This document shows, piece by piece, positions 2,240-53,540 of a DNA stretch of 64,000 nucleotides. This DNA comes from Ectocarpus siliculosus (taxonomy: Eukaryota; Sar; Phaeophyceae; Ectocarpales; Ectocarpaceae). A program made the translations under genes and the position numbers. Under the pieces are notes generated by a model. It was not told where the DNA came from. It ran no database searches and saw only the letters and a list, made by a program, of their open reading frames with translations. The stretch covers positions 1,217,390-1,281,389 of the forward strand of contig FN649732.1 of NCBI GenBank assembly GCA_000310025.1, written 5' to 3'. Within the stretch, counting starts at the first letter, position 1. Each line of letters begins with the position of its first letter.

Positions 2240-5200
2240 GAAGTCTCAAGAAATTTGAAGTGGAGGCGCCTCCCCGCTGCCACACGACCATGTGTCTGGG
2301 GAGAAGCCGAGGTGGCATTTTCGACGATTCGACCCGGTCGAGCTGTGGTTGCGGTGGAGGGCCCGGAAGACGAGGCATCTCCATTCGGGAGAGCATGAGC
2401 GCAAGGTGTGTCTATCGTCCACGCGCGAGGGCAGGGGTCAAGGGTCACGTGCTGATCGAACTCTCGCTCCATCAGATGTGGTAGTGCCAAGCGTTTTACG
2501 GATCATAAGCGGCGTGGAGGCCGGCGACCATATTATTTTTGGGAGTATTTTCGGAAGGGGGCATTGTCACCTGTCACCGGTCACCGGCAATAGACCTTCC
2601 TGCGTCCCCCCCCGTTTTTCACTACTTTTTTGTTTGTTTCCCGCCTAGAGAACAAAGGTGCCACATGTATGCATAAGCTTTGGTGCCAATGCCGACATTT
2701 CTTAAGCGGTTTCTCCACACCGCATGCCGACATCGGCTGATTGCGTAGCGGAAACTACAGGTGAAAAACATGTTCAATTATGCAAGTTGGCGGGTGCAGC
2801 AGTCGGGTAGCCGCAGGTGGGACCGTGCATGTAGACGAAACGTGGCGTGAGTGTGTGTGTCGTTTAGGTGGCGTGTTTTGCTTTGATTTACCGGGGGGGG
2901 GGTCGGATCGGAACGGGGCTGTTGTTTTTGTTGTCGTTTGTGGTTGGTCGGTCTTTCACCCTTCCCTGCCCCCACCCTTGTCTTGATTTCATGTTTCTTT
3001 AATCGGGAAGGTACAGTGAGCTCTGGTCGGTGAATGGTTGGCCGAAACGCCCAGCGTTGATGTATGTTCACTCCCCTAGTCGCTCTCGGTTACCTTGGTA
3101 TCTATACTTTGTCTAGGGATGAGGCGTGGGAGGGGGTGAGGGAAGGTCGTCAATTCATTGCCGAACTGGGATGATGTTCGGTAGCCACGCGTGCATGGCT
3201 CGCCGAATGGGTGCGCTGTTGTATGTGGTATTCTAGTCTTCTGTGTTATCTGTCACTTGTCCTTGTCGTAAGCTATGAGGTTGTCTTGTCCTTGTCGTCT
3301 GATTAACAGCTGGCTCTGTGCTGACCCTTGTCTTGATGGTGTGATGCGTCACGTGATGACCATGCCACTTCATTCCCATATGCCCCCCTGCGGTCTAAGT
3401 TGGCTCCGGGAGCTCAGGGGTGGGCCCGCTAGGCTGCTGAGCGTTTGTTTCTTCTCTTGTGTCTAGTTTGTGTTCAGAAGGGTGTTCGGTGGTTGTCGAT
3501 TACAACATGATGAATGGTTCGGTGCCTTTGGAAGCGGACTTTGGGATGCGTTCAATGGCACACGTTTCGACCGGCCTGGGCAATGAATGACACGATAGGC
3601 GTAGACCGAAAATCAGCATATTCCTCTGATCACTTCTTGCTCATTAGAACATTGTGGATCGACAACCTGACACTGGGAAAGCTAACGTAGGGTCCAACCG
3701 TTAGCTGGTTGCTGTGCTTTTTTGTATTTGTTGCGAGGGTTGGGATCGCCCGTGTAGACTATTTCTGTTATTCTTGTCCGTGGCGATGGGTCGTTTTTGG
3801 GGGCGGTTAGGGTGCTGGACCGAATTTTGCTGAGAAGCCTCCATGATGCAAGATCCGTAAGTTATTGCCAACCCTCACATTCAATCGCTGATCGTCTGTG
3901 ACCTGCCTTGGCGTGTGCCCTTCGGCGATTTATGGTTGGGCAAGGCCTATCGAGCTTGCCCGTGGCACCCGATGTTGTTGTTGGAGCTTCTTGCCCCTTC
4001 CTGTCATGTCGCTTGGTGTGCCTGGCTGCTCTGTCTTGCCTGCTGCGTTGGTATCCCGACCTCTGCTGTTGCAGGCGCCTGCTGCCGTGTATGTGTTTGT
4101 TGTATTGGCAGTCAACGGTTTGATGCTGGTGCTGGATGTCCGCAGGCAGTTCTTCGTTCTTCTTAGGGAAGGGAAGGGAAGGGTGTGAGGGGTAGCGGTG
4201 CCAATGAATTGCAGACTTGGAGTATCATTTCGGTGCCCGCCCGGACGAGACTGTACGGGCATGCATTCTTTGAGCGATCTCTTCTATTGAACCGCTTGAG
4301 GTGTGATTCAGGCTCTTCAGCGCCTACGCTAGGTAGGATCAATCGTAGGTATGCACCTGTTTTGCATCCCGGTGAACGTTCCGTTCCGCTATACGTATTC
4401 GGTTTGAAGAGACCAATTTTTTCGACGCACGCATGTACATGGGTTCGATTGGGGTGTGCACGGGACGCGTGTTCTCTCGATCGCTGCGTGTAGCCTGAGC
4501 TAAAGAAGATTGGTGACGGTTGCTTGATTTAGTCACTCACGGTATGTAAAGTATGACAGGAAATAATATTACTTGAACTTCATATCGCTGTCTGAAGTAC
4601 CATATATCCAAGGGGTTTCTGTTGCCCCTGAAGCTCTGCCCAAGCTGTTGAATGAACGACAGTCGGTCAGTCAGTCGGGCGTCAGGCGTGGCAGTTGCTG
4701 TACTCCGGAGTTACACCAGTAGTCCTTTCGCTGCAGCGTCTTCTCTCACAACAGATTGCACGAACTGGTATGTTGCAGATAAAGCCTGCGCAACGCCGCA
4801 GTGTCTCTACGAGGCAGACTTGAAACGAGGTGTGCGATTCCGTGCTATTTTCCCGGAATTCGTTCCTCGTCAGCCTCCATGTTCCGGGGAGGTCAGGAGC
4901 GAGCGGCCTTTGTGACACACCAGAAACTAGTCTCCGTATGAAAGTATACTTGCCCAACGTAGTGCATATGGTATTTCATAACTACTTCACTCCACAATTC
5001 GACAGCACAGTCTGAGAGTTCGCCTAAGTCATTGAAACGTATGTCGCTTTCTGCCATGTGCGACGATACCTCTCTGACATTTGAGATTCCGTCTCTCCCC
5101 TCCGGGCTCTCCCCCTTCCCATGCAGATTCACGTTCGAGGCCTGCCTGCGTCGAGCATCACCATCAACAAAACTCTGTGGAACAGGTGGCCAGCGCGGAA

Positions 5201-5375
5201 CATTCAATTATTATTCTCATCCCAGACATTTCGGAATAATTTACAGACGCCGCATTTTTCCTTTCGCCGGCAGCAGACGCTCCACGTACACCAGCAGAAG
5301 CAGGACCGCCGCGTAAGCCCAGCCGGCCAAGGCCCTGCGTACGTGTTCGATGATCTCAATCCCCCATCAGTGACA
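2240..5375. other. Intergenic region
   Basis: About 3.1 kb lie between the transporter stop codon and the signal-peptide exon of the next gene. Short open frames occur on both strands, but none shows a recognisable domain, and none can be spliced into either neighbour with a motif that supports it. An in-frame ATG at 5121 upstream of the next gene is noted under that gene. I see no RNA gene or repeat here. Confidence 0.6.
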
Positions 5376-8300
5376 ATGAAGCCCCAGCTTATGGCGGTCC
5401 TAGCGGTGCTTCTCAGCGTCGTTTCTGCCACAGGACATGAAGATAGCCGCAGCTTTCAACCACGGGATGATGGATTGGCCGGCGCCGTCCCAGGTATTGT
5501 CTTCCCATTTTGCCGTGGGCCATACGGGTACGAAGGACGTGGCTCGGTGGATTTCTTTTGGTTCGCTTGTGCGTGCTTTCGTGTCCATGTCCTCGCCTGC
5601 CCTGCCAGCAGCGGACCATCGTAACTGTACCAGACCGGCAGTCAGCGGCTAAATAGCATTCGCGGCAAAATAGTACTGGAACACCGCTTCTCGCACCACC
5701 AACAGACAACAGGACAAAGAAGGAGTGGAAGCATGGAACCAGCTGTTGCGTGGCAGGGGTGGCCAAAATTTTGTTCGCAGCTGGTTGCAGACGAACAACA
5801 TACTCTGTTCCGCTGATCTGCCGCTGTAGAGGCGGAGACATGTAAATGGCAAAACCTTCCTCGCTACATCGGCCTTCAGTAATCTCCGTGTATACGTTTA
5901 CGTACGTATGAAGCGCGAGAGGAAGGAGCTTGACCGGTTGTATAGCGGTGCCCGTGTGGTGAAAAGAAGTATACGAGGGGCATCGGCGGCTCATGGTTCT
6001 TGTCGCCTTGTGGTGGATGTTTGTTATCTTTGGCTCCGGACGGATGTATGCGTCTGTCATCCGACAGCAGGAGGAGTGTTGTGCAGACAAAAGAAATTGC
6101 GGACAACAATATCTGGACAGGTTCTCGGTTCTCATCACACGCCACCTGCAGTATATATAGTCCGTCGGTTCGATTTGGATACAGTACAGTACATTAGGGG
6201 GGGGGCATATCTGGCAGTGTGAATAGTATACTGTAGTAGGGCGGAAATCTCGATATAAGGCGGCCGAATTTTGCGCCCACAACTCAGACCCGCCTTATCC
6301 CGGGTCGGACCCTTTGTAAGGCGTTAGCTATCGATCTGAAACCCATGTGGGGCGGTGTTCATCTTCGCCTCAGTACGCCGTCTTTGAAACAAACCTCTCT
6401 GACACAAGGCACCTGAGCGAGAGAACAATACAACGCCAAGCTTGAGCTGTACACAACAAATATCACTTGCCGCATCTAAACCTGAGCGGCAGTCGAACAT
6501 GAGAGAATTATTGTATGCATAGGCGGCACGTAGGCGGATCAAAGGTGCCCGGAAGAAGCTACTCCGCACGCCTACGTACCCCCGCTCTGGGAGGGCCGAA
6601 CTTTGGAAAATGACAAACATGGTACGTACATCGTCCACGCCATTTTTTTTCTCTTGATTCATTGACTTGCAATATGCATCGTGTAGTGCACGTCGCACCT
6701 GTTTGATCTGTAGACTCGTCTAGTACATACGAAATACTGGCACTACATGAAACTGTCACTGCGCCCAGAACTGGTAGGTGGTGGAGAAACCACACCACGT
6801 CCTCGTATCAGTTCTCCGTACATCTGAGGAGCCCAGGCAAGTAGCAGCACACACCTCTGCGCGCGTGGCCTGAGAACCCCAATGCTATGTAGACAGAACC
6901 TCAGAACGTCATTATGCTCAGTGTTCTGACAATACGGCATATAAAGTATTTAAACTACACAGCAACTCCGAAGGCGCCTTTTCGGGGTGCGTTTACGCCC
7001 CCTCGAGCTCATGTCTCTCAGTCTCGAACAGGTAGTTTTTCTAGGCTATTACTGTACACATGCAGGCGATTCTATATTGGCTCCCTCCTACATCGTGGAT
7101 GTGCAGAACGACGGTCTGATCGGAAAAAATGGTGACTGATCGGAAATGAAACTTGGCTGATCCGCAACAAGAAGAGATGCACCCATGTTCGTTGTACACC
7201 TCAGACCGTGAGGAATCACTGCTGACGTCGTGGCCGTTGATGGGCGATGGTCGGGTGGAGATGTCTTCAGCGAGAAGCGCCTCGGCGGCGGAGACCGCAG
7301 CGGTGGTGCATGGTGTCATGAACGAGGGCTTGGAGGGGGAGGATCTGTGGCCAACAGTACCAGCGGAGGCAGGCGGGCGGCGGGGGCAAGAGGACGAAGA
7401 GAAAACAGCAGACGTTGTTGTGGTAGGTCGAGTACGCGGGCGCGCCGGAGGTGTGTCGACAAATAAGTCTTCTAATCCGCAGTGTAAGATTTGAAAGGTG
7501 CATTTACAGGGGCTTAGAAAAAACAATACCATCGTCCGAGAAAGGGTTTTCAGGTCCATCACAGACGGTGGTTGTTCCAGAAGGTTTCATCGGCCGTAGA
7601 AGTTTCACTCCAATCCCATTTCCGTGCGCTCGACGATCAACACAACAAGCACCACCCCTAACTCCCCTCTTGTTTCCCTCCAAAACATATCTCCCGTTCG
7701 AATTCGTGGATTGATGGTGTCCTATGCGACGGCCGCGGCCAATGTTCTTTATGGACCAGCAGGAACAAGGAGTGGTATCGCGAGATGAGGATGGGCTTGC
7801 CAGTATCAGACGACTGGCCATTAATTTTACTGGTGAGAGGGGCGGTGTCTATCTCGTTTGCTTGGGCAGCATGCCTCCGTTGCAAGCCCTAACAGCCCTA
7901 CGGTATGCGGTGTCCTTTGCTCTGGATAAACCATTCATGTGGGTGGCTCTGGGTTTTCATTCCTGCCACAGTTCTACCCCCATGTTTTCGGCACTTGGAC
8001 CGTAAATGTTGATTGATTTCACGTCTACCTCCCCGTTGGCGAAGTCGTTGGCGACGTCGAAACCCTGCTGTGTACATTATTGCAAGTGGCTGCTACAGCC
8101 AGAGCCATTGGTGTGGTTTCAGAACACTTGTCATTCTGAAGCATGTTCGTGCTCGACGAACTCTGTCTACCCGTGGAGGTGTTGAATGCCCGTGTTGAAA
8201 GAATGAAAGCGTGCACGTCTTCAACAGCTGCCACTACGGTGCAGGCACCGCCTGTGAACGTCAGGACCGCGTGAACATGGCTTCCTCACTTTTCAAGGGT

Positions 8301-11278
8301 CATTCTGGGACCCCCACCCACGCATATGTGCTTCGATGGCGCAGATCTCTACCCAAACTGCACTTCACTAGCGTACTACGATGACAGTGTGCCTGGGGAC
8401 AACTACTGCAATTCATGTAAGGATCTGGGCGTATTTTCTTGCCTGACGAGGTACAAAGCCACGGCCTCATGCTTGCGGAGGGCCAAGGTTGGTTGTTGCG
8501 CGATGCTTTTGCCCAAGAAGAGCGTCATGCAAGCGTTAAGATATGAGTTTTGCCACATGTAGAAACATACCAAAAGGGACGCCAAGCAGAGGCGCTAGCC
8601 ATGCCACACGGTCCTCTCCGCAGATTACAACAACGCCGAGTGTGGGTACGATGGCGGGGATTGCTGCGACTGCGACTGCGGCACGTTTGGTACGTCCTTG
8701 GATTCGTCGTCTTCGACGACTTTTTCTTCGTCGAATTTCACGTGCGGGGCCAACGGATACGTCTGCGTGGATCCCGCATCGGAGTGCTTCGAAGGTGGGC
8801 ACAAGAGTGAATCGTTTTGTATTCACCCGTGACGTTCGACCTACTTCCTCTATGTAGTGTCGTGACATGGCCATTTTTGTTGCCCCCCCCCCATCGTCAC
8901 TACTCACAGGTATTTAGGAAGCACAGGTTGGTGGTGTAGACAAGCATGTATCGGAATCCTACTTCCAACGCCTATTCCTCTGTTTTTCCTGACAGCACAA
9001 TACATGTTTCACTTCATAATTACAGTCATTTCGGGTTATGTCGTCACTGCAGTATGTAGATTTAGCTCAATTTCTCTTGGGTTTTCTGTCATCTCCTCGA
9101 TTGTCATTGTGTGAATTTCTTCCAGGGGTGCTTGAGCGGGCCAGCGCTGACTCGACCTGCATCACTAGGCGCGCATGATATATCTTGCGTCTGTCAGTGC
9201 TTGAGGCATGCTGCGAAGGGCTGCTACACGATAGATTGTGCAAAACCACCGTGATGTTCATCATCTTTCGGTTTCAGCAGCTAGGGTTAAGGGTTAGGCC
9301 GTCGTGCCCTCGCACGTCTACGCATTGTTCCACGTGATGCCGCATGGTAGGTCTTCGTCTCCCGCTTATGTGCTCGCCCATGCTTTATCGTTCGTGTTGT
9401 GCAGACCTGTATCCTGATTGCGTCTCAAGAGGCGGAACCCTGGAATGGATCGGAAACGGGGCCTGCTACTGGGGTGAGCGTTGACGTATGATATCTTCAG
9501 TTGTTCGGTCCGCTGTGCCTCTCAGCTTGCAAGAGACAAAGTCTAGTCGATGTGACGCGTGCGTCTCAAGGCCGTGCACGCAGGTGGTGGAACGTTGTAC
9601 GACTCGGTCGGCTCGTGCTTCCCTTTCATACATTCATACTCATATTTGGAGGATAGCAGAAAGATTCACAGGTTGTAGTACCTTGTGAGAGCGATGCCGT
9701 TGGCCACCTCATGGGGGAGGGAGGGCTGGTTCACCATGTTCCTGGTGTTGTGCTCAGTTGACGGGCGATTATGCACGTACACGGCTTTCACTCCTTGCTA
9801 GCCGAGCAACACCGCTATGCTGCACCTACCGGGGCCGAGCGAAGCACTTGTCCACTTTATTGTCTCACATTCCTCGCAGAAATTTCAATCTATTGTAACT
9901 CCAAGATGTCGAAACCGTCACAACTTTCCAGTGGTTCTTGACATGCAGAGGTCTCATCGAGCACCAACCTTAGACTACGTATTTAATGTTACTTCCTGAA
10001 CATGCCCGTAATGGCTGTGGTTTGTATGTGTTGCCGATGGCGAATTCAAGAGCGACCGCTCCACCCATGTTGGCAACCGGTGTCCCCCTTCCTATTCACG
10101 CGCGCACGCAGGGAACAACTTCGAAGAATGCGGCTACGATGGAGGAGAGTAAGTTGCTGTCCCCCGGGAGTGGATTTCAAGTGTTGCCGTACGCACACAA
10201 GCGGCGAACCAAGCGAATCAGTTACGCGATTCGTGCATTGATGAGTGAAATATTTCGTGGGTTGGTCGGAACGCTTTATTTTCGTTGCGCGATGAAGCTG
10301 AGGCATGCGCTAGGTGTCGATCTTTGAGCTGTCCGGCAACTCCCTCGTCCTCACCCCCCCCCACCCGCACTATTGTCCCACTCCGTCGTCCCCCTGTCCT
10401 GGCGGTTTGCGTCAGTTGTTGCGAATGCGACTGCGAGTCAACCCTGGAGAGTCACTGTGGCGTGAATGGCTACGACTGCGCCGATCCTAGTTCGCCTTCG
10501 GAGTGCATAGAAGGTGGGCTGAAGCGTAATGACCTCCGTTGGTGAACGTGTCGATATCGCTGAGCTCTCACCTGATTCACCTGTGTGCTTCATACCCCCT
10601 GAGCGTCATCCGGGTAGTCTTGCAATCGGTAACGGCAGACTTTTGTTTCCTCATATGCGGCCTTGATTCCATACTCGCTGGTCAACTGCTGAGTGTCGAT
10701 CCGCGAAACAGATATCACCACCGGGGTCATGAGGCACTCTATCGACGTAATTTTTGAGAAGTAGTCGCATAGATAACTCGATGTCGCCTCCTTGTCAATC
10801 TCAGCCGCCGATCCCCTCGCGTGGTCAATCTACCTCTGATCATCACCATTAGATGTGCCGACACCGTCACCGCAAGAGCAAGCACCCACGCCATCTCCAC
10901 TAGAAGTCACGCCGGCAGTATCGTCCGAAGGTATGCTTGATTTGGCGCATGTGACGCAACGACCTGTTGTATTTAGATTCTGATTGGCGTCTCACAGGAA
11001 CTAGTCACCGTTCTTTGTGAAGTGCTTGGTAGAGTGAACTTTTCAGCTACGTCGTTGTGAAGGGTGTTGTGAGAGGGATTTGAAGTCATCTGCGTCCGAT
11101 CATTGTGCCCACTCTTTGCCCATGTATATTTTCCCGGCTGCCTTGTACAGATGGTGATTCGGATGACACCTTCGTGAGGGACATCATCATCGGAGTGATT
11201 TCAACCGTGGTCGGTGGGGTAGCATTAGCATTAGTCACCAAATATTGTCTAGGAGAACGAGCGTCTTCGGCAGGATGA
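5376..11278 (+). CDS. Type I membrane protein with signal peptide, two Lin-12/Notch repeat (LNR) modules, Pro-rich stalk and one TM helix
   Basis: Ten exons join in phase to 331 residues: 5376-5493, 7271-7422, 7760-7832, 8345-8416, 8624-8794, 9405-9473, 10112-10148, 10416-10513, 10853-10930 and 11151-11278 (TGA). Residues 1-18 are a clear signal peptide (MKPQLMAVLAVLLSVVSA). Exons 2-3 are polar and of unknown fold. Exons 4-5 and 6-8 each build one LNR of the pattern C...G(D/N)xxC...NNxECGYDGGDC, followed by CC(D/E)CDC and then a CGxNGYxCxDP...EC motif. Exon 9 is a PTPSP-type stalk. Exon 10 has a charged DGDSDD start, a helix near residues 297-319 and a short tail, LGERASSAG. LNRs in Notch and related proteins bind calcium and shield cleavage sites; a cell-surface role is inferred. 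The ATG at 5376 is chosen because it gives the signal peptide; an in-frame ATG at 5121 would bury it. The acceptor of exon 3 is the weakest call. Decayed relatives lie at 24-27.5 kb. Confidence 0.8.
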
Positions 11279-12534
11279 TGTTCCGGATCAAGAAAAATTG
11301 AATCTCAGTACAATGAGCATGCTGTTGAGAGAAGTCGAGGTCCAAGGCCTTCACCTAGACGGAATAGAGGACATCACCAGCGCTGGAGTGCGTTTAGTGC
11401 ACAACGTTTCAAGCGCTCCCACGCATGGGCATCTATCTGTCGGACAGCGTGCTTAGGTCGATCGTGGTACACGTATTGACTGCAGTACACCATCTTGAAC
11501 ACAGGACCTTTGTAATTCGAGCATGGCCAAACATACAAAACGCACACGCACAAGCAGGAACGATGTCATCCTCTGAAGCATATACATACACAACAAACGT
11601 TGGGACGAGATTCCCTCGGCGACACAACCTGGACCCACCATCAACAAGTCACGATGGCCAACGATATGCTATGGGCAGAAATGATCATCACCTGATGATT
11701 CGGGTGGGGAAGCTCAAGCTTCCACCCCGAATTCATAGAAATACCTTCTGATCGGGCGTGTTGAATGGTTATGCATAGGGAGGAGATTTTCGTAGGTAGT
11801 CATGAACGGGTAGTCGAGTTGTTCAGCCAACGAACGAGCTGCAGTGCAGACGCTATACGCGACACATTCACCGGTGCGGTACGGGTGCACAAGTATTCGA
11901 CGTTCTCGCACCGCAGGCAACCTTTGAGACTATGCCATGGACATGATCTGTCAGAGACGACAATATTTAGCTGGTGGTGTCTGCTTTGTGTTTGGGGTTG
12001 TAGAGTTGTTGTGTTTTGGAAGACGACTTGGTCTTGCCCCTACGACAGGGACAGCATTCACGGTGAAGAGGGTCCACCGAAGAATAAACGAATATTGCTG
12101 CAGTAGCCTGATTATCGCCCTCCCTCTCTTTCTCCTTCTCATGCGCACTCTTGGCGTGATCTCTGCAGGACTTGTAGAACCAAACTGTTGGTGACCCCTT
12201 TGCTCCCCTGGTCATAAATATGCTTCCCAGGTCTGTCTCCCTAACACACTTCCGGGAATCACTGCGAATCACTGCCCCAACATAAACTTCTGGAAATAAT
12301 CGCGGAACATCATGGACGCAATCGCCAACAACGCTAGCACCACTCCTACATATCGTCTTCGCCCTCGTCAGGCGGTCCCTGTAACGCTCCACTAGCAAGG
12401 GAGTGTTCATGTCCCCAATTTAGCAAGGCCTTGGTGTACGTGTCTTCGATGAAATCATGCCCCAAACTTACGGCATTGCTACCTGTGCTTGGGGTTCTTG
12501 TCTCTAGACTGGACACGAGTCGCGGTGTTCAAAC
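11279..12534. other. Intergenic region, including probable 3' UTR of the LNR gene
   Basis: No coding exon is supported here. A stretch just after the stop codon (about 11330-11450) resembles the sequence just after the matching exon of the decayed copies at 26.5 and 27.57 kb, including a shared AGCGCTGG element. It is probably 3' UTR that was duplicated along with the gene. Confidence 0.5.
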
Positions 12535-14068
12535 ACAAGAGGGCTTCGCCACCCCGGCCCCGCGATGTGCATGTTGTTCGGGCAGGAACGACTCAACACC
12601 AACCAGCCGAGGCGACCCCATGACCTGTCGGTTGGAGCGTGTGCCAGCATTTGCAAAGGCGCTGGTTGTTAACAGCACGACAACGGCTGTTATATGCTGT
12701 GGCTCCGTATGTGACGGAGGCTTGGGTAGAGAAACACAGAGTGATTGTATTATCTTCACACCGACGCCCAAGCTGTCTTCACCTGACGGTTACAGACTTG
12801 GCGACGCCTTCACAATACCGCATAAACCCATGCAGTAGAATAGAGCCGTTCTTGTACTACAAGCACTTCCAACAGTTGTCAGCCTCGACTTCTTCATCGT
12901 TGTTGCCGTTCTCTCCCGGAGATTTTATCACGTCCGCAGGGGTGTCTCCATCATCGTTCGTGAGCTTCTTCTCATCTGCTCCCCAACGCAGCTCCACATT
13001 CGCCACTATCGAAATCATGCCAGCTATACGGCGCGGCGTCTCGTCGAGTTCGTCACGCACATTGACATTCGCCCCATCCTCCAAAAGGGCGCTGATCGTG
13101 CCGATAGATTCTATCCGATGATTAACGGCAACATGGAGAGGCGCGGAGTAATCGTCGCCGGTAGCCTTCGCGTTGACATCAGCCCAAGCCAGTTTCCAAC
13201 AGCACACGGACGGCATCGTCGCCGTTGTCACCGACTGGTATAATATTAGCGCAGGAGTGTAGGGCTGTGAAGCCGCTATCATCGGTGGCGTGGAGTGCAC
13301 TACTGTCTTGATCAAGGAAGACTATCACGATGGTCGCGTGACCTCTTGTTGCAAAAGCCTCGAGAGGAGAATAGTGGTCGTCGCAACGAATGCCGTGGTT
13401 GGCACCGGCACCTAGAAGAAGCTCTTTCATAGATTCGAGGTGGTTGTTTTCTGCCGCCTTCCACATTGACATTTCACCTAAACTATTGACCGCGTCCTTT
13501 GTCTGCGCCGCCCCCCAAAAGTTGAGAGATGCCCAGCGCACGGTCCTTGGAAGCAGCCAGGTGGAGAGGAGTCTCCTGGAGATCATTCGTTGGGTCTACA
13601 TCGGCCCCTTTCAGAAGAAGCATGCTGGTGCCCAACTTCGGCAGCGAGAGCGGACTGCATGTCTCCCGATCACGCAGATTCTGGTCTGCTCCAACCATTA
13701 TGAGCGCCGTGGAGCCTTTCCTGCCCCGTGCGCTGCCGCAACATGGAGGACGGACTTGCGTTTAGCCCCGCGAACAGGGCGTTTACATTATTAATTGTCC
13801 GTCGCCCCCGCGGTGAGCATAGCCCGTACTGTATGTATGTATAATCTTCTAGCTCCATATACCGTATGCAGCCACACCCAGCAGTGTTCGTTCATGGCAA
13901 CTCCGACAGCCTGCTTCTCCGTTGGCACCAGCGTCCATCAGCCTTGTGAAGAGATCCACGTTTCCTTTGTTGTCACTGCTCCTCGGTCCCTTTCTCGACG
14001 ACTTTGAAGATCTCGATCTCGCAGCCGTCCACACGTGAGCGGTCTCCTTTACTTTTCGAAGCGGACAT
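12535..14068 (-). pseudogene. Ankyrin-repeat protein pseudogene, left arm of an inverted pair
   Basis: Read leftwards, the sequence starts with an ATG at 14068-14066 (MSASKSKGDRS...). It continues through DGCEIEIFKVVEKG and then ankyrin units such as LFTRLMDAGANGEA, ESMKELLLGAGANHGIR, TALHSCA and PLHVAVNHRIESIGT. Compared with the right arm it lacks about 45 bp after VVEKGTEEQ, which brings in a stop. At least two further frame changes follow, near 13790 and 13200-13250. Homology to the right arm resumes at 12535-12675 after an unrelated insertion of about 170 bp. Ankyrin repeats are generic protein-binding modules. With these breaks no full-length product is possible from this arm. Long open frames survive between the breaks, so decay looks recent. 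Confidence 0.75.
12682..12855. other. Insertion of about 170 bp inside the left ankyrin arm
   Basis: This segment has no counterpart in the right arm, whereas both of its flanks do. Its ends carry the short inverted words AACGGCT and AGCCGTT, which would fit a small non-autonomous DNA element. The inverted ends are only seven bases and no target-site duplication is obvious, so the call is tentative. Confidence 0.3.
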
Positions 14069-14428
14069 TGTCGTGTGCTCTCTCCCATTGCAATCTTACA
14101 CGAGGCGTTGTGTTGCTGCTGATTCTGGCTAGAGCGGGAGCAGGTAGGCTGGGAGTGGCAGGCAGTGCGCAGTGCTGAGTGAGAGGTGAGTGCGGAGGAA
14201 CCGGGGGGCATCCGCAGAACGCGTAAAGTTCAGAACATGATGCTGTACGTAGCTATGATGATGTCTTCATATGCATATCTCGCCGCATTTTCTGTGATGC
14301 TGGCTGTTAACCCTCGGTGCAGTCTCCCTCTGCTCCGTGTCAGCCTACTTGCAGCCTACAGCCTACCAGCAGCAATACGACTCTACGCGTGAGATCGCAA
14401 TAGGAAAGACAAATACTATCAAAAGACG

Positions 14429-15942
14429 ATATCCGCTTCGAAACCTCAAGGAGACCGGTCAAGTGTGGACGGCTTCGAGATCGACATCTTCAAACTCGTC
14501 CGAAGGGAGGCGACTTCGGAGCAGTGGAAACAGTGGCTTCGAGCACCTCTGGAGCATGCCGCGGCCAAAGGAATCTTGGATCTCTTCACAAGGCTGATGG
14601 ACGCTGGAGCCAATGGGGAAGCAGAGTGGCGGGAATGCCATGGACGAACACTGCTGGGTGCGGCTGCATACGGCAAGAGCGAGAAGATGGTACGGGCTCT
14701 GCTCACCGCGGGGGCGAAGAGTGATTGATGTAAACGCTCTCTTTGGGGGTGAAAGCGAGTCCGCTCTGCACGTTGCGGCAGCGCGGGGGGCAGAGAAGGC
14801 CTCCACAGCGCTCATGATCGCCGGAGCAGACCCGAATCTGCGCGATCGGATGAATCGTAGTCCGCTCCATCTCGCTGCCGAAGCTGGGCACCGTCATATC
14901 ATAGGTATCCTTCTGAAAGGGGCCGATGTAGACGCGTGGAATGATCGCCAGGAGACTCCTCTCCACCTGGCTGCTTCCAAGGGCCATGCGCCGTGCATCT
15001 CTGAGCTTTTGGTGGGCGGCGCAGACAAGGATGCGATCGATAGTGTAGGTCAAACGCCACTGTGGCATGCGGCAGATAACAACCAACTCGAAGCTACCGA
15101 AGAGCTTCTAGCTGCCGGTGCAAACTACCGCATACGTTGCTTCGACCAACGTTCTCCTCTCGAGGCTGCTGCAATGGGAGGTCACGCGACCATCGTGACT
15201 TCCTTGACGGAGACGGGGATGAAGCCTTCGCCACCGACGATTTCGGATTAACGGCCCTGCACCCTGCGCTTTTTCACCCGTCGGTGACAACGGCGATGCT
15301 GTTCGCGTACTGTTGGAAGCTGGGGCTGACGTCGACGCGGAGGCCACCGGCAGCGATTGCTCCACGCCTCTCCACGTTGCCGTTGATCGTCGTGTAGCAT
15401 CAATCGGCACGATCGGCGCCCTTTTGGAGGGAGGGGCGGATATCCACGTGTTTGACGAAATCGACGATACTCCACTGCACAGAGCTTGCAAGCGTTCGAG
15501 TGTAACTGGTGTTGAGCTTCTGTTGCGTCGGGGAGCAGATGAGGAGCTCACGAACGAGGAAGGAGACGCCCCTGCGGACATAGTAGGAGCGTCGCCGAGT
15601 AACGCCACCGTCGACGAAGAAATCGAGGTCGACAACCAGCGCATTCGCCGAATGCTGGCACGCGCCCCAGCCGATAGGTCATGGCGTCGCCGCGGCTTGC
15701 TGGTGCTGAGTCGTTCTTGCCCGACCAGGGTGCAGATCGCAAACAGAAGTAGCAGCGGCAGCTCTATCGGCAGCAGCAAGGGTTGCTTCGCCAAGGTGTC
15801 GCCGGCCAGCCGCAAAAATTCGGGCGGGGATAACGAGGAGACGGGAGACCAGATGGTGATGGTCGACTGGAGGTATTTGGTTTGCAGGCTGATCGAACTG
15901 GAGGTTGATGGCTTGTTCCGCTTGGTGGTGGGCTTCGTGTGA
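14429..15942 (+). pseudogene. Ankyrin-repeat protein pseudogene, right arm of the inverted pair
   Basis: Three long frames together encode an ankyrin protein: SVDGFEIDIFKLV...LTRLMDAGANGE up to a TGA at 14726, then VNALFGGESESALHVAAARG through TPLHLAASKGHAP and EATEELLAAGAN up to about 15200, then LLEAGADVDAEAT through RGADEELTNEEGDAPADIV to the stop at 15940-15942. Between them the frame changes near 14728, about 15200 and about 15300. Protein similarity with the left arm shows that the joins were once continuous. The codon matching the left arm's start ATG is ATA here (14429-14431). The C-terminal 100 or so residues after the repeats are basic and Ser-rich with no known domain. Introns at the breaks were considered, but no paired splice sites in the right phase are evident. 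Product unlikely, though expression of a shorter protein cannot be excluded. Confidence 0.72.
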
Positions 15943-19920: not shown

Positions 19921-20420
19921 CTCACCCCGTCCGACGCGCTATGGGGCCTTTGATTTTTTCCCCTCCCTCGCGCCCCGTCCGACGCGCCGCGGGGCTAATG
20001 TTTACCTCCCCCCCACGCTCCTCCCGACGCGCCATGGGGCTGCATTGATTGTTGCCCTCCCGCGCCCCTCCGGTCGCGGCTGCGAGCACACGGCCCTCCC
20101 GCCGTGTTCTTTGGTTGTTGCCCTTCCGCGCCCCTCCCGTCGCGGCTGTGGGCACACGGCCATCTCGCAGTGCTCTCTGACCATTGCCCCCCCCACGCCC
20201 CTTCCGTCGCGGCTGTGGGCCTGAATTATTCTTCAAGTATGATGCCCTTCCCCACGCTCCTTGCTGCGCGGCACGGGGCCGTTTTTGCTTGTTGCCCACC
20301 CGCACCCCTCCCGTCGCGGCTATGGGCACACGACCATCTCGCCGTATTCTCTGAATATTGCCCCCCCACGCCCCTTCCGTCGCGGCTATGGACACACGGC
20401 CGTTCGGCCGGTTTTCTGTG
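19921..20420. repeat. GC-rich minisatellite
   Basis: The stretch consists of tandem, imperfect units built on CGCGCCCCTCCCGTCGCGGC followed by a TGTGGGCACACGGCC-type half. From 20052 to 20420 the period is about 66-69 bp. From 19924 to 20050 shorter units (GTCCGACGCGCC core) repeat every 50 bp or so. The same short core also occurs at about 17510-17570, on the other side of the LINE. The repeat leaves frames open on both strands, which explains the long - strand frame here without any need for a gene. Confidence 0.7.
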
Positions 20421-24059: not shown

Positions 24060-24150
24060 GTAGTCTATTTCCGATTCTCGTGCCAACTCTTTAACCATGT
24101 TCCTTTTCCTGGCTGCCCTACAGATGGTGATTCTGATGGAGTGATTATTA
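24060..24150 (+). pseudogene. Fragment of the LNR gene family: end of last intron and start of TM exon
   Basis: The sequence ATCTATATG...CCATGTTCCTTTTCCTGGCTGCCCTACAG followed by ATGGTGATTCTGATG matches the last intron end and last exon start of the intact gene (around 11090-11165). Here the exon then jumps to GGAGTGATT, as if the DDTFVRDIII part had been deleted, and the helix is lost. This is a truncated relic. Confidence 0.6.
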
Positions 24151-25293
24151 GTCAGTCGCGCCGATACATTACGTAGCTGTAAGAATCTCAACTTCTCCTT
24201 GTGACAAGTGCCAAGTGTAATGGTAGAGACACGCGTAGCAATCCCTGAAGACCCTTCCTTGGTGAAGACTCACTTGTTGATTCATCTCTCTCTCTCTTTG
24301 GATAGCAGTGCATGCTGATTCCTTGCTCTTTGTGGTAGACTGAGCATGTGGGGGCAGACCAGCTCCCTCTAACAGGGTTTACCAAGGTCCTGTCCCCGGC
24401 TTTATCCTTCAATCGGGAGTTACATCTCCCGCACTTTCCTCTGGGTATTAGCCCGCACTACCGTTGGTTCTTTCCTACACATTCAAATCCCATAACAGCA
24501 GTATACTGTGGCGGGCCGTTGATTTTCGGTGTTCTTGCGAAATTCATGTCATGCAAGAAAGAGCGAACAAGGCCTGCTGATTCAATGGTGCAGACAGTTC
24601 CATCCCCGGGTGCCAATAAAACGCTGCCTTTCCACTGAGCCGTCCCTTGTCTGAAAGCCCTATCCAATTGTCCCCTCGAAATCGTGGGGACATTTGAAAT
24701 GGCTTTTAGACAACAATTAGCGGGAGCGTGGTAAACGGGGCACGAAAAGGAGGTTTCGGGAAAGCGAAACCTTCTAACCCAAGCCCTAGATTGCCCGGTG
24801 CCTCCTCTTATCGGTGAGCTATGTATTATAGGTACTTCTTCCGCGCTTGCACCAAGAAGAGGCGCTTTCCATCCAAGCGTAGAGACACGCGGCGCAACTT
24901 CGCATAGTCTAATCGTCCCGCCATTCGACCTGTCATTACCCTCATACTCCTCCACTTTACAAAACATCCAGAATAGACTTCAGAGATGTAGAGCTGTCCC
25001 CGTGTACCCCGGCAACCCCCTTGTCGAGTAGTTCAAAGGAGGGGGCAACCATGTCATTCGTCGCGAGGTGAAGCAGGTGAAGAAGATGGGTCCCCAAAAG
25101 CCGATCTACAGTTAGTAGCCCTACAGACATCCCGCTCAGAGGAATATCTGTTCCGTTTGGAGAGCAGCGCCAAGAGTTTCTGGACCAAGCAAGTCGGTAA
25201 CCCACCTGGTCTATCTCGCCCTTCAGGTCATGAAGGACTGTCATTGTTGGTTGTCATTGTTGGTTTACGACGGCCAGGGGGTGGCACCTTCAG
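24151..25293. other. Region with uncharacterised open frames
   Basis: Open frames of about 96 codons (+, 24348-24638) and 169 codons (-, 24458-24967) overlap each other on opposite strands, and a 77-codon + frame follows at 24798-25031. None shows a family motif that I recognise. The base composition does not suggest organelle DNA. I cannot tell which, if any, is coding. Confidence 0.3.
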
Positions 25294-26437
25294 CGAAAAG
25301 AAGGTCAAACGAGACCGCGGCGGTAGTTCATCATGCCACGAACGAAAACTTGGAGGGTCGAGCAAGCACGGCTAGCAATGTCAGCGGAAGCAGGTGTGAA
25401 ACAAGCAGAAGAAGATGAAAAGAATACAGCGGACAAGGCCAGGGATGGCGAGACTCTCCCACACGTTGCTGTGGTAAGTTTGAGTACGCGGATTTGCCGT
25501 AGGCGTTTCGACCACATAGTGAAGCCGTAGACAGAGATGGTGTTTGGGAGGAAGAAATCTGGAATGGGGACCTCGAAGACTAGAACCACCCGCTACGCTC
25601 GCCGATCGCCAGAGGCACTCCCGATTCCCCTCTCTTCCTTCCTATCCGACTTTCCTACTTCATTTATTGATGTTTTCAGGACAACGTTTTGTTGTCGATG
25701 AAGCTGCAGGTAACAGACGTGGCTTCGCGAGAACAGGGACATGCCAAAATCAGACTGCTGGTCTCTAACGTTTCTGGTGAGATGGGTGTGTCTCGTTCAT
25801 TGTTGGGGCAGTGATATCTGCAGCAAACCTGAAGAGCTTCCACATCACACGATATAGTAATCAGTAGAAATCGGTTACTCGGGATGAACCAAGGATGATC
25901 AGCGTTCCCTGATGCTTCACAAACACACACCCCTCGTGAATCTTTGCCACGCACCCTCTCTCGCCGTCATCACTTTTTGAAGCGCACACAGAGTCACCCC
26001 AATCTCAAGCACCCACGCCATCTCCCGTTGATATTATACCGTCGGTGACGTCCGAACGTATGCTTGAGTTCGCGCGTATGTATGGCAGCATCGATTTTCC
26101 GCGTTGAATGAAGCACTCTGGCGAGTTTTGTGAAGGTCTTGATTGAGTGAAAATGTCAGTCATATTGATGGGTGGCATTCTGAGGAGGAGTCAAAGCCAT
26201 CTGTTTCCACCTCTTGTGCTCTCGAAAGCCACAATCTATCAGTTTCCTCTTGTGTCCCCTCTTTGACCAACGCCCTATCATTTTCCCCAACTGCCTTGGA
26301 CAGATGGTGGTTATTCGGATGATAACTTCGAGAGGGACATGTTCCTCCTCGGCGGGGTGCTAGTCGTCTTTGGCGGGCGGGCCTTGGTGTTGATCACCAA
26401 GTATTGTCTGCAAGAAATTACGCCATCGGCGAGATGA
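25294..26437 (+). pseudogene. Second copy of the LNR-family gene, lacking the LNR exons
   Basis: Four segments match exons of the intact gene. 25294-25473 matches exon 2 (ETAAVVH..NENLEG against ETAAVVHGVMNEGLEG) and ends in the same donor. 25680-25776 matches exon 3 (VASR...AKIRLLVSNVS against VVSR...ASIRRLAINFT). 25992-26057 is the stalk (SQAPTPSPV). 26304-26437 is the TM exon (GGYSDDNFERD, a hydrophobic helix, then TKYCLQEITPSAR and a stop). Both LNR modules, about 3 kb in the intact gene, are absent between exon 3 and the stalk. The exon 2 copy has a net frame change and hits a stop, so a full product is not expected. From exon 3 on, all phases still match, so a protein with no LNRs could in principle be spliced. 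No signal-peptide exon was found upstream. Confidence 0.65.
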
Positions 26438-26904
26438 TGTCCATGAAAACTGTGTACCATATGCTTCAGGGTGATGGCTACATGTGGAGATCGACGTCCA
26501 TGGGCTCGTCCATGACGGAGGAATAGAGGACGATGAGCGCTGGAGGGCGGCCCGTAGCATTCAAGAGCAGACCCTCAAGCGCATCACTCATCTCTTGTCG
26601 GACCATGTGCTCTCGTTGGGGGTAGAGTACAGTTTCAGTCCGTTCGTAGGGGCGTAGAGCCGGACTCGCAGGAACCCGTATCATCGCCTTGGAAAAGGTT
26701 TCAGATCTACATATACGCCGGCGTAACAACCTCAGGTGGCGGTGAGCCTTTGACAATGAATACTGAATGCGAGCGCCAGGTGTTAGGTGCCTGTCTCCCA
26801 GAATTCACTAATATTGTTTTGTGCACGGTCTGAGAACATAATCTTACCAAGCACCCCCTCCTCCCCTTCCTCTCCTATCCTGTTCTTGCTACCACTTCGT
26901 ATTG

Positions 26905-27470
26905 ATTGTGCCCATTGTGAATTGCCCGATGAACCGGCAGCAAGATGCGGCAACGCGAGATGGCTTGCCAGCATCAGATCTCTGGCGTCGGAGGGGTATT
27001 TGTTTGTCGTTCGTTGCTCGAGCACCGTGCGTGCGTGGGGATGAAAACCTGAACCTCTCCACAGCAGTATTCAGCATTGCATGCGCTCTGAATGAGAACC
27101 ACCCAGTCCCCAATCGTCGCACGGTCGAGGTCTTGGTCTCATCACTTTTAGAAGCGCCCACAGCGTCACCCGAGGTCCAACCGCCTACCCTATCTCCCGG
27201 GGATAAGACCGCGTTGGTGTTGTTCGAAGGGGTCCTTCTTGGGCGTGTGAATATGACGTCATTGGTGTTTTCCAATGCGGCTGAGTGAATTATAGCCATC
27301 ACATGAGAAGTACTCTACGAGTGAGTTCGAAGCACCGTTTGTTTCAATATCTGTTTTCCTCTCTTTGACCACAGGTACTCCCCTGGCTCCCCTGGACCGG
27401 TCGCAATATGGTTATTTACTATCGACATCTTAGTCTGGTGAGTGTGACGCAAAATCGCGTTTGGTGGTGC
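26905..27470 (+). pseudogene. Third, more decayed copy of the LNR-family gene
   Basis: DNA at about 26925-26985 matches exon 3 of the family (CAGCAAGATG..., GATGGCTTGCCAGCATCAGA). DNA at about 27135-27230 matches the intron end and stalk exon (CATCACTTTTAGAAGCGC...CACAG, then TCACC...CCTACCCTATCTCCCG). The counterpart of the TM exon, near 27390-27420, is unrecognisable as a helix. A 3' flank similar to the other copies follows at about 27565-27640. A continuous frame of 128 codons runs across former intron sequence (26902-27288), which is probably chance. Confidence 0.55.
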
Positions 27471-30245: not shown

Positions 30246-30437
30246 ACATTTAGCGGCACCCCCACGAAGCACACCCAATAAAAGCTGCAGGTAGACACAG
30301 GTGGCGACATCTTCTACTATATCAGTCGCAAGAGCACGCACACATTTAGCGACGCCCCCACGAAGCACACCCAATAAAAGCTGCAGGTAGACACAGGTGG
30401 CGACATCTTCTACCATATCAGTGGCAAGAGCAGCACG
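30246..30437. repeat. 96-bp tandem duplication
   Basis: Two adjacent units of 96 bp (30246-30341 and 30342-30437) differ at only a handful of positions. The unit length is a multiple of three, and a - strand frame stays open through both, reading (D/M)VEDVATCVYLQLLLGVLRGG twice. It lies just downstream of the copper ATPase stop. No homologue is recognised and no start or splice context supports a gene. Confidence 0.8.
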
Positions 30438-52007: not shown

Positions 52008-52117
52008 TGCTGTCTGGCCAGCTTTGCGCGCTCGTGCTCTCCAGAGATGTTGCTACCTTGCCTGCTGTCTGGCCAGCTTTGTGCGCTCGTGTTCTCCAGA
52101 GATGTTGCAACCTTGCC
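52008..52117. repeat. 55-bp tandem duplication
   Basis: The units at 52008-52062 and 52063-52117 begin TGCTGTCTGGCCAGCTTTG and end ACCTTGCC, and differ at three positions. The high identity indicates a recent event. No gene overlaps it. Confidence 0.9.
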
Positions 52118-52559: not shown

Positions 52560-53540
52560 CGGTCCGATGGTCAACATTGCAGCACGCGGCCGAAACTCGT
52601 ACCATGAGCTTTGTCAATCTCACACCAGGCAAAAAGGGCTTTGAGTGTGAAGCAGACGAGTGCAAAGCAGATAAACCAATCCCGACGAAAAAAAACAGAA
52701 AAAAAACAGTCCCACAGGATACGTGCACGACGGCAAGCCCGATGATTTCGTAATGTCACACCAGGCTCACAAGGGCTACAACTGTGAAACAGGACAAAGC
52801 AGAGAAACCAACCAATTCTTCGGGTTCAAATCTTGATCCCGACGAATAAAACCAGACAGATATAGTTCCACAGGATACATGCCCCACGGCAAGCCCTAAC
52901 TTTTCGCATTCTCACGCCAGGCTTAAAAGGGCCATGACTGTGAAGCAGAAGGACAAACGTACATTATACAAGTACAATCACAAGTTTGGGTTCCTCGTTA
53001 ACCGGACGAAAAACAGCGGACAGAGATAGTCCCACCGGATACGTGCACCACGGCAAGCCCGATATTCTTGCATTCTCACACCAGGCTTAAAAGGGCTTTA
53101 GCTGTGAAAGGATAAAGCAGAGCAGAGAAAATCACCAACTTTGGATTCAGTAATTGATCCCGACGAAAACAAGCAGACAGAGATAGCCCCACAGTATACG
53201 TGCACCACGGCAATTCCGATGTTCATGCAATCTCACACCAGGCTGAAAAGGGCAATAACTGTGAAAGGATAAAGCAGAGACAATCACCAACTTTGGATTC
53301 AGTAACTGATCCCTACGAATAAAGGCAGAGATAGTTCCACGGGATACATGCCACGCGGCAAGCCCGATATTTTCGTAATGTCACACCAGGCTCAAACGGG
53401 CGATCACTGATCACTGTGAAACAGAAGGACAAAGTAGATACAATCACAAGTTTGGGTTCAACTCTTGATCCCGACCAATACAAGCAGACAGAAGTAATCC
53501 CATAGGATACGTGCACCGCAGCAAGCCATATTTTCTACTC
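52560..53540. repeat. Tandem array of about 160-bp units
   Basis: About six or seven imperfect units each carry the words CCACAGGATACGTGCAC, ACGGCAAGCCCGAT, TCACACCAGGCT, AAGGGC, AACTGTGAA and TTGATCCCGACGAA, in the same order. The GGATACGTGCAC word starts near 52713, 52871, 53033, 53191, 53338 and 53501, giving spacings of 147-163 bp. The first unit, from about 52560, is the most diverged. No long frame is conserved between units, so a satellite is more likely than a coding repeat. Confidence 0.8.

Follow-up and report, generated by a model that had tools for sequence, protein, structure and literature searches.

Gene model and predicted protein

The analysed window is a stretch of 64,000 nucleotides of the Ectocarpus siliculosus genome, and at positions 5376-11278 it very probably carries a real gene for a brown-algal LNR membrane protein. 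The ends of this gene, its exon number and the length of its product were supplied by the first-pass annotation, and the inner exon boundaries were set in the follow-up. When the window sequence was spliced accordingly, ten exons on the forward strand gave 331 residues plus a stop codon with an open phase throughout, as had been claimed. All nine introns are of the GT-AG type, but this indicates consistency rather than proof, since the sites were picked as GT-AG with the target length known. An eight-exon model encoding 256 amino acids is also open and in frame, but it was superseded by the ten-exon model because a paralogue in the window revealed exon-2- and exon-3-like stretches.

Exon 1 (5376..5493; phase 0 in, 1 out) carries the ATG and encodes a hydrophobic N-terminus. 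No clear paralogous exon was found for it within the window, where the best other tblastn match had an E-value of 0.41. Exon 2 (7271..7422; phase 1 in, 0 out) and exon 3 (7760..7832; phase 0 in, 1 out) encode a linker, and the CAGCAG pair at the exon-3 acceptor makes a difference of plus or minus one Gln possible. The first half of LNR1 lies on exon 4 (8345..8416; phase 1-1), to which the Pfam Notch stretch at residues 119-152 was assigned. By eye, the acceptor context of this exon is weak. Exon 5 (8624..8794; phase 1-1) encodes the second half of LNR1 and the first six-cysteine tail; its phase-1 acceptor is located 38 nt before the CC pair, as it is in nine other loci that were retrieved from four contigs. 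For the second module, the LNR is distributed over exon 6 (9405..9473; phase 1-1), which carries its first half, exon 7 (10112..10148; phase 1 in, 2 out), which encodes GNNFEECGYDGGD, and exon 8 (10416..10513; phase 2 in, 1 out), which carries its end and the second six-cysteine tail. The exon-8 acceptor lies 1 nt before CC, as in one other locus (L039), and when exons 7 and 8 are counted together from the splice the distance is again 38 nt. A Pro/Ser/Thr-rich stalk is encoded by exon 9 (10853..10930; phase 1-1), and exon 10 (11151..11278) contributes the transmembrane helix, a short cytoplasmic tail and the stop codon. Seven of the nine introns are in phase 1. Four of the eight internal exons (4, 5, 6 and 9) are 1-1 exons on their own, and the pairs 2+3 and 7+8 are so only jointly. 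Exons 4-8 form a block of modules between phase-1 introns, an arrangement that would be expected of an exon-shuffled gene.

Hydropathy analysis indicated an N-terminal hydrophobic stretch (residues 1-19, mean 1.57), which fits a signal peptide, and a single strong hydrophobic span (residues 300-319, mean 2.46 over 301-319). By hydropathy, the protein thus combines a signal peptide with one transmembrane span, as is typical for type I membrane proteins. The charged residues after the hydrophobic span speak against GPI anchoring, which was rejected on this reasoning and not with a predictor. The signal peptide, the Pro-rich stalk, the single transmembrane helix and the modular exons had all been proposed before, and splicing and hydropathy agree with them. 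The earlier domain list had, however, omitted the 75 residues of exons 2 and 3 between exon 1 and LNR1, and neither the exon-2 linker nor this segment as a whole contains a recognised domain. The cytoplasmic tail had been given as nine residues, which holds when it is counted after KYC, but hydropathy yields about 12. The tail carries no recognised domain, and the label receptor-like is a tentative one.

A broken paralogue and relics in the window

Some 18 kb downstream, at 25294..26437 on the forward strand, we found a broken paralogue that is colinear with the gene at 68-74% DNA identity. It carries stretches resembling exons 2, 3, 9 and 10 in this order and lacks the LNR exons. The matching segments are 7291-7413 with 25311-25434 (exon 2, 68.5%), 7743-7850 with 25690-25793 (exon 3, 69.4%), 10840-10948 with 25967-26075 (exon 9, 74.3%) and 11103-11281 with 26250-26440 (exon 10, 69.6%), and these colinear matches support the four exons of our model. 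In the exon-2-like part of the paralogue, each of the three frames contains a stop. Between the two copies 30, 30 and 48 differences fall on codon positions 1, 2 and 3, and a dN/dS of about 0.42 was calculated over 119 codons; this value is rough, since the paralogue is broken, and the compared segments were partly chosen by similarity.

Two further relics are located on the forward strand. The first (24070..24138; 80.3% over 71 columns) corresponds to the intron preceding exon 10 plus the initial bases of this exon, and the second (27139..27231; 73.3% to 25967-26056) is a relic of the stalk exon 9, in which no donor GT was seen by eye. A genome search for other copies of the transmembrane exon returned the relic, a single weak match on contig C4 that has an internal stop, and nothing else.

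LNR-tail modules in Ectocarpus and in bacteria

The protein contains two tandem modules, each consisting of a four-cysteine LNR and a six-cysteine tail (20 cysteines in total), which are 68% identical where aligned. The first-pass annotation had correctly recognised two LNRs, but it had not separated the tail that follows each of them, and the LNRs have four cysteines each rather than six. The cysteines of a module are predicted to form five disulfides, and one between the first CxC cysteine and the last cysteine of the tail was considered as a possible pairing. Both modules have the C-x6-C core with DGGD and the Asn/Asp calcium ligands, and N27 and DGGDC were invariant in 11 chosen full modules that included both of them. 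In LNRs, such Asn and Asp residues bind calcium, and the same role is predicted for this protein. Ligand roles of this kind are described in the part of PMC9579167 available to us.

With the Pfam LNR model (PF00066, curated cut-off 21.2 bits), the 331-residue protein scored 17.3 bits and the 256-residue core 18.8 bits, with two stretches each. The profile match by which the first-pass annotation had proposed to check the product therefore stayed below the cut-off. A Pfam scan of the 331 residues at E-values up to 1 returned the Notch/LNR model only, with neither EGF nor ankyrin domains. Genome-wide, this model also gave only two matches over the cut-off among 65 candidates scored, one of them inside a locus of the family described below (L008). 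A family profile built from 26 hand-picked modules elsewhere in the genome, without those of the window, scored the two modules at 48.0 and 28.6 bits, far above the best of 2000 shuffled sequences (10.3 bits). Both modules follow the family tail pattern CC-x-C-x-C...C...C-x-DP...C after DGGD and retain all seven aligned family cysteines; a tail-only profile gave 14.8 bits for module 1 and 33.1 bits for module 2. In the six frames of the window, the DGGDC and CC-tail motifs occur only at these two modules. The six-cysteine tail had no sequence match in Pfam or the PDB, and a PDB search with the module alignment returned no matches.

In the genome we counted 156 DGGDCC-type sites compared with three in the control, and many are clustered on four contigs (C39, C24, C27 and C11; among the 100 of 156 places listed). 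In Ectocarpus, the gene belongs to a large family, and the rarity implied by the first-pass annotation does not hold. Its guess of a brown-algal origin was borne out by EsV-1-7 matches (at least 150 scored), which fit a brown alga. The best long match of module 2 at another locus is 56% identical, and several matches over 20 residues reach 70-80%. The two modules may derive from one duplicated exon pair, but these matches elsewhere make this uncertain. A viral origin was rejected: the YDGGDCC DNA pattern occurred in six stretches of viral contigs, with an LNR context in one locus only (L041), and a profile search of the viral contigs confirmed none of 22 as LNR-tail modules.

The LNR-plus-tail module is also present, rarely, in bacteria. 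In an uncultured proteobacterium MAG (L053), a Pfam scan identified a trypsin-like protease (PF00089) that ends with a four-cysteine LNR followed by a CC...C...C.D tail as in the algal module, and this position fits the role of a binding module. A second bacterial locus (L055) appears similar by eye. The algal tail profile scored 32.7 bits on L053 and 21.1 bits on L055; the bacterial modules lack two of the tail cysteines and are encoded in one open frame. Of 282 genomes sampled in the phylum of a Myxococcales locus, two were matched by the LNR-tail model, and both had been known as seeds before; the module is thus rare there. A structure prediction of the bacterial module from eight rows gave a mean pLDDT of 55.9, too low for use.

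Proposed function and alternative explanations

Multicellularity arose in brown algae separately from that of animals and plants, and few of their surface proteins have been characterised. Ectocarpus genes with a Notch domain (IPR000800), including Esi0061_0098, which is downregulated in the etoile mutant, likewise encode brown-algal LNR-type modules, a likeness based on their description and not on sequence comparison. Le Bail et al. in 2011 reportedly called several of them Lin-Notch-domain transmembrane proteins. Since such genes were reported earlier in Ectocarpus, with 16 in gametes (PMC3879662, the only source with information on Ectocarpus in the partial texts on LNR/Notch in Ectocarpus, brown algae and stramenopiles), our gene is of a known kind and adds a member to it. 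Expansions of Notch-domain genes are described for an oomycete and a diatom in the available parts of PMC3681718 and PMC8613185.

The best PDB sequence match of the 256-residue query was LNR3 of human pappalysin-1 (PAPP-A; E-value 0.0012), which has the same C-x8-C-x6-CC spacing. The match stops at residue 82 of the query, so that the six-cysteine tail lies outside, and PAPP-A is a metalloprotease, unlike our protein. According to the excerpted text of PMC9579167, the LNRs of PAPP-A contain a calcium ion and either two disulfides or one, and LNR3 provides a precedent for a two-disulfide LNR that binds calcium and partners.

With a probability of roughly 0.55, we consider the gene, which looks intact, to encode a type I single-pass protein that tethers a partner at the cell surface via calcium-dependent LNR modules. 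Each LNR would bind one calcium ion via the conserved N and DGGD residues, the disulfide-held LNR surface might dock a partner, either protein or glycoprotein, that sits in the wall or belongs to a neighbouring cell, and the stalk would keep this surface away from the membrane. In this way, the protein could act at the cell surface to tether or concentrate its partner. The earlier suggestion of sensing or adhesion is likewise an inference; the most likely role appears to be that of a surface- or wall-binding tether that depends on calcium and does not itself signal. Because the tail is so short, any signal would have to go through a partner protein.

This length also bears on the highly improbable scenario of a Notch-like receptor, in which presenilin/gamma-secretase, after cleavage of the ectodomain, frees the tail as a signal. 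Our protein shares with Notch the LNR units outside a single transmembrane helix, presenilin exons are present in the genome (three matches over cut-off), and gamma-secretase parts are reported for Ectocarpus gametes in the accessible portion of PMC3879662. However, the tail has only about 12 residues and contains no domain, and the make-up of a Notch receptor (EGF repeats, LNRs, HD, TM, ankyrin) was not found, LNR being the only Pfam hit at E-values up to 1. The LNRs of Notch differ from ours as well: they have three disulfides without exception (PMC9579167, in part), whereas our modules have four LNR cysteines each. That the gene is a decaying or unexpressed copy, or that exons of two genes were wrongly joined, also seems improbable. 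Three relic pieces lie nearby, and exon 1 is 1.8 kb away from exon 2 and lacks paralogous support, but the 331 codons contain neither stop nor frameshift, the order of the parts that resemble exons 2, 3, 9 and 10 is unchanged in the relic copy, and every aligned family cysteine is retained in both modules.

It is unlikely, though less so, that the gene is part of a diversifying recognition repertoire, in which shuffling or copying of phase-compatible LNR exons among members and relics alters ligand specificity. The many clustered sites, the phase-1 introns and an LNR block that is present in the gene and absent from its broken sister copy would fit this idea, for which LRR exon shuffling, proposed for brown-algal LRR-ROCO genes (PMC11378527, in part), offers a precedent. 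Nevertheless, module 2 reaches only 56% identity in its best long match elsewhere, so no recent exchange was seen.

Beyond the surface tether that we favour, the gene, as part of a large family, matters mainly as an entry point: it opens the way to an expansion of surface proteins that has received little study, with well over 100 LNR-type sites, and to a tail domain that has no Pfam match and is also found in some bacteria. Tentatively, the unit might be a larger composite domain (two-disulfide LNR plus Cys-rich tail) that passed between eukaryotes and a small number of bacteria and was amplified as a modular surface-recognition repertoire. The tail would have six cysteines in algae and fewer in bacteria, the domain would occupy well over 100 sites in this brown alga, and phase-1 introns would halve it, so that recombination in introns could create new half-and-half modules, in parallel to the LRR-ROCO genes. 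If such a cassette model is true, strain comparisons could test for a diversification like that of recognition receptors. In LRR-ROCO genes the repeat units likewise lie on separate in-phase exons, but these are 72-bp phase-2 LRR exons in GTPases (according to the part of PMC11378527 at hand), whereas in our gene LNR halves lie on exons, the introns are mostly in phase 1 and the product is a membrane protein.

Gene model, product and relic copies

The gene at window positions 5376-11278 (+) can be spliced with the ends, exon number and length proposed by the first-pass annotation, giving 331 residues from ten exons with a frame open up to the stop. This annotation supplied no inner boundaries, and because we picked the splice sites as GT-AG with the target length known beforehand, the presence of GT-AG at 9/9 introns is consistency but no proof of the gene model. 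Seven introns are in phase 1, one (exons 2/3) in phase 0 and one (exons 7/8) in phase 2. The product starts with a hydrophobic segment (residues 1-19), and exons 2 and 3 contribute a further 75 residues. Two cysteine-rich modules of ten cysteines each (cysteines 120-193 and 201-261) come next, followed by a stalk of Pro/Ser/Thr composition and a single transmembrane span (residues 300-319). The claimed N-terminal signal-type segment, Pro-rich stalk and single transmembrane helix can thus be seen in the spliced product, but about 12 cytoplasmic residues were found instead of a nine-residue tail. Cys322, the 21st cysteine, is located just past the span.

As internal control, window 4401-12400 was compared at the DNA level with the whole window. 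Here, we found five further matches, every one on the + strand. Four of them (25311-26440; 68.5, 69.4, 74.3 and 69.6%) were colinear with exons 2, 3, 9 and 10 and define a sister copy. The exon-2-like part of this copy carries a stop in each of the three frames, and the copy is therefore broken. A motif search in six frames of the window detected no LNR motif in it, and about 210 bases separate its exon-3-like part from the stalk-like one, versus 3.0 kb in the window gene. The LNR block may have been gained in the window gene or lost in the sister copy. Over 119 aligned codons, the gene and the sister copy differ 30, 30 and 48 times at codon positions 1, 2 and 3 (binomial p 0.011). The dN/dS of about 0.42 is a rough value, since the segments were partly picked by similarity. 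This comparison supports the predicted coding status of exons 2, 3, 9 and 10; for exon 1, the DNA comparison within the window gave no such paralogue support. Along 24070-27231, relics of the gene lie in tandem: a truncated piece with the end of the intron before exon 10 and the first bases of exon 10 (24070-24138, +, 80.3%), the broken copy, in which LNR exons are missing, and a stalk-like exon 9 piece (27139-27231) with GT absent at the donor place.

Module structure and the Ectocarpus family

The module follows the pattern C-x14/15-C-x8-C-x6-C, then C-x-C-x-C...C...C-x-DP...C. Its first four cysteines represent an LNR without the Notch-type second and fourth cysteines (Notch numbering). The C-x8-C-x6-CC spacing is the same in PAPP-A LNR3, the best PDB match. 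PAPP-A LNRs have two or one disulfides, but nonetheless keep their Ca2+ ligands and bind partners (PMC9579167). When we aligned 28 modules (both window modules and 26 rows from other loci), 28/28 rows scanned gave no Pfam match at E up to 1, and a PDB profile search with this alignment gave none; the window protein had no match in NCBIfam. All seven aligned cysteines were present in 27/28 rows, but this is no conservation measure since 25/26 non-window rows came from a search pattern requiring them. In L004, the only non-window row found otherwise, loss of the first CxC cysteine goes along with that of the last cysteine, and the same joint loss was observed in the bacterial loci L053 and L055. 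In L054 and in one module of L056, the first CxC cysteine is missing but a later cysteine is present, and thus a disulfide from the first CxC cysteine to the last tail cysteine is only hinted at.

A family profile of the 26 non-window rows, which were hand-selected by eye (25 out of 36 distinct modules of the family, plus L004), scored the window modules at 48.0 and 28.6 bits, and the best of 2000 protein shuffles reached 10.3. In all six frames of the 64-kb window, DGGDC and CC-tail motifs were not found beyond the two modules. The Pfam LNR model gave 18.8 bits (E 0.0022) on the 256-aa core and 17.3 bits (E 0.0068) on the 331-aa product with a cut-off of 21.2 bits; genome-wide, it gave only 2 matches with E up to 0.001 (65 candidates scored), both above cut-off. 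The sub-cut-off scores go against the label of a textbook LNR protein and are to be weighed with the family evidence.

A degenerate DGGDCC pattern matched the genome 156 times (3 for the reversed control), and these matches (100/156 places listed) are sites of unproven exon status. Near-identical site pairs on contigs C17, C11 and C27 may have arisen by recent duplication or in the assembly. When module 2 was used as a protein query, 62 matches were obtained at E up to 0.1, including exon 8 itself (80/80 candidates scored), but the search overlooked module 1 of the same locus, so that such counts are lower bounds. Clustered LNR-tail sites on C39 (148-423 kb), C24 (2756-2797 kb), C27, C11 and C164 are probably many-module genes or gene clusters. 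From a subset of the matches, 46 stretches (40 + 6) were fetched, and intron positions were read by eye on the acceptor side only. An exon-5-type acceptor (YAG, 38 nt before CC, phase 1) was seen at nine loci on four contigs (L006; L014; L009, L022, L025, L028; L021, L029, L037), several of which are close copies of one another. Many other loci have an acceptor 17 nt before CC, also in phase 1, L039 shares its phase-2 acceptor position with exon 8, and in L001 and L002 no intron interrupts the 38-nt place. Taken together, the acceptor positions indicate that in many copies the intron cuts the domain within the LNR rather than at its edge. In L001 and L018, the module is joined to a long open frame resembling, by eye, a repeat-rich surface protein; a hydrophobic span shortly follows the module in L004/L051 and, by eye, in L019/L050.

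The EsV-1-7 motif is typical of brown algae. It gave at least 150 matches in this genome (150 of 880 candidates scored, all above its cut-off) and none in 14 control genomes, which fits a brown alga and agrees with the earlier assignment to an apparent one. Lin-Notch-domain transmembrane proteins were reportedly described by Le Bail et al. in 2011. In Ectocarpus gametes, 16 genes with a Notch domain have been reported, of which one is down in etoile, with a strict-sense Notch receptor absent (PMC3879662). Further reports describe Notch-domain expansion in the oomycete Saprolegnia (15 vs 1 each for five other oomycetes; PMC3681718) and in a diatom (PMC8613185), and repeat-exon shuffling in LRR-ROCO genes (PMC11378527). 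Because of these reports, the window gene is one more of a known kind; the points that go further are the module, which is composite, and the LNR block, which resembles a cassette.

Relatives in bacteria and an LNR-like unit in viral-collection DNA

Among 40 pattern matches in prokaryote genomes, five code for a relative (uncultured proteobacterium on two contigs, bacterium Co_bin.297, Myxococcales, Neomarinimicrobiota bacterium). All are MAGs, and mis-binning may be their source; the Myxococcales record names the Red Sea. With a tail profile of the 26 algal rows alone, tails of 4/5 bacterial loci reached 32.7, 28.7, 23.4, 21.2 and 21.1 bits, and the fifth locus, L057, reached 9.5 bits (best of 1800 shuffles 9.2); the two window tails gave 33.1 and 14.8 bits. 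One bacterial genome (G001) carries seven LNR-tail matches (L053, L055 and its contigs C10, C13, C27). Within the phylum to which the Myxococcales locus belongs, only 2/282 sampled genomes match, both of them seeds, and the distribution is therefore patchy. A Pfam scan, run on L053 among these loci, identified its open frame as a trypsin (PF00089, E 1.5e-46) that terminates in the module. For L041, a contig filed as viral that may be eukaryotic DNA, the algal tail profile gave no row among its best 22. At about position 632 of this contig, we observed an LNR-like unit within a Cys-rich open frame.

Proposed role and other window features

The window protein would be secreted and tethered to the surface, form disulfides, bind Ca2+ and bind a partner, for which the module might offer a docking surface. 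By analogy, docking appears the most economical role, since PAPP-A LNR3 binds partners and the L053 protease carries a module at its end. LNR3 contributes to substrate and inhibitor binding, which is weaker once Ca2+ is removed (PMC9579167). The short tail of about 12 cytoplasmic residues argues against direct signalling by the protein. Presenilin-type cleavage is possible because the Ectocarpus genome contains presenilin exons (three matches above the Pfam cut-off at C7:2310410-2315409), but such cleavage would free almost nothing.

Apart from the gene and its relics, the window carries an inverted repeat (12562-15740) with arms of about 1.3 kb (74%), and an open frame in this region (12857-13321, -) looks ankyrin-like by eye. 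Tandem repeats are located at 52681-53527 (period 157), 30246-30436 (period 96), 20045-20215 (period 66) and 52008-52117 (period 55).
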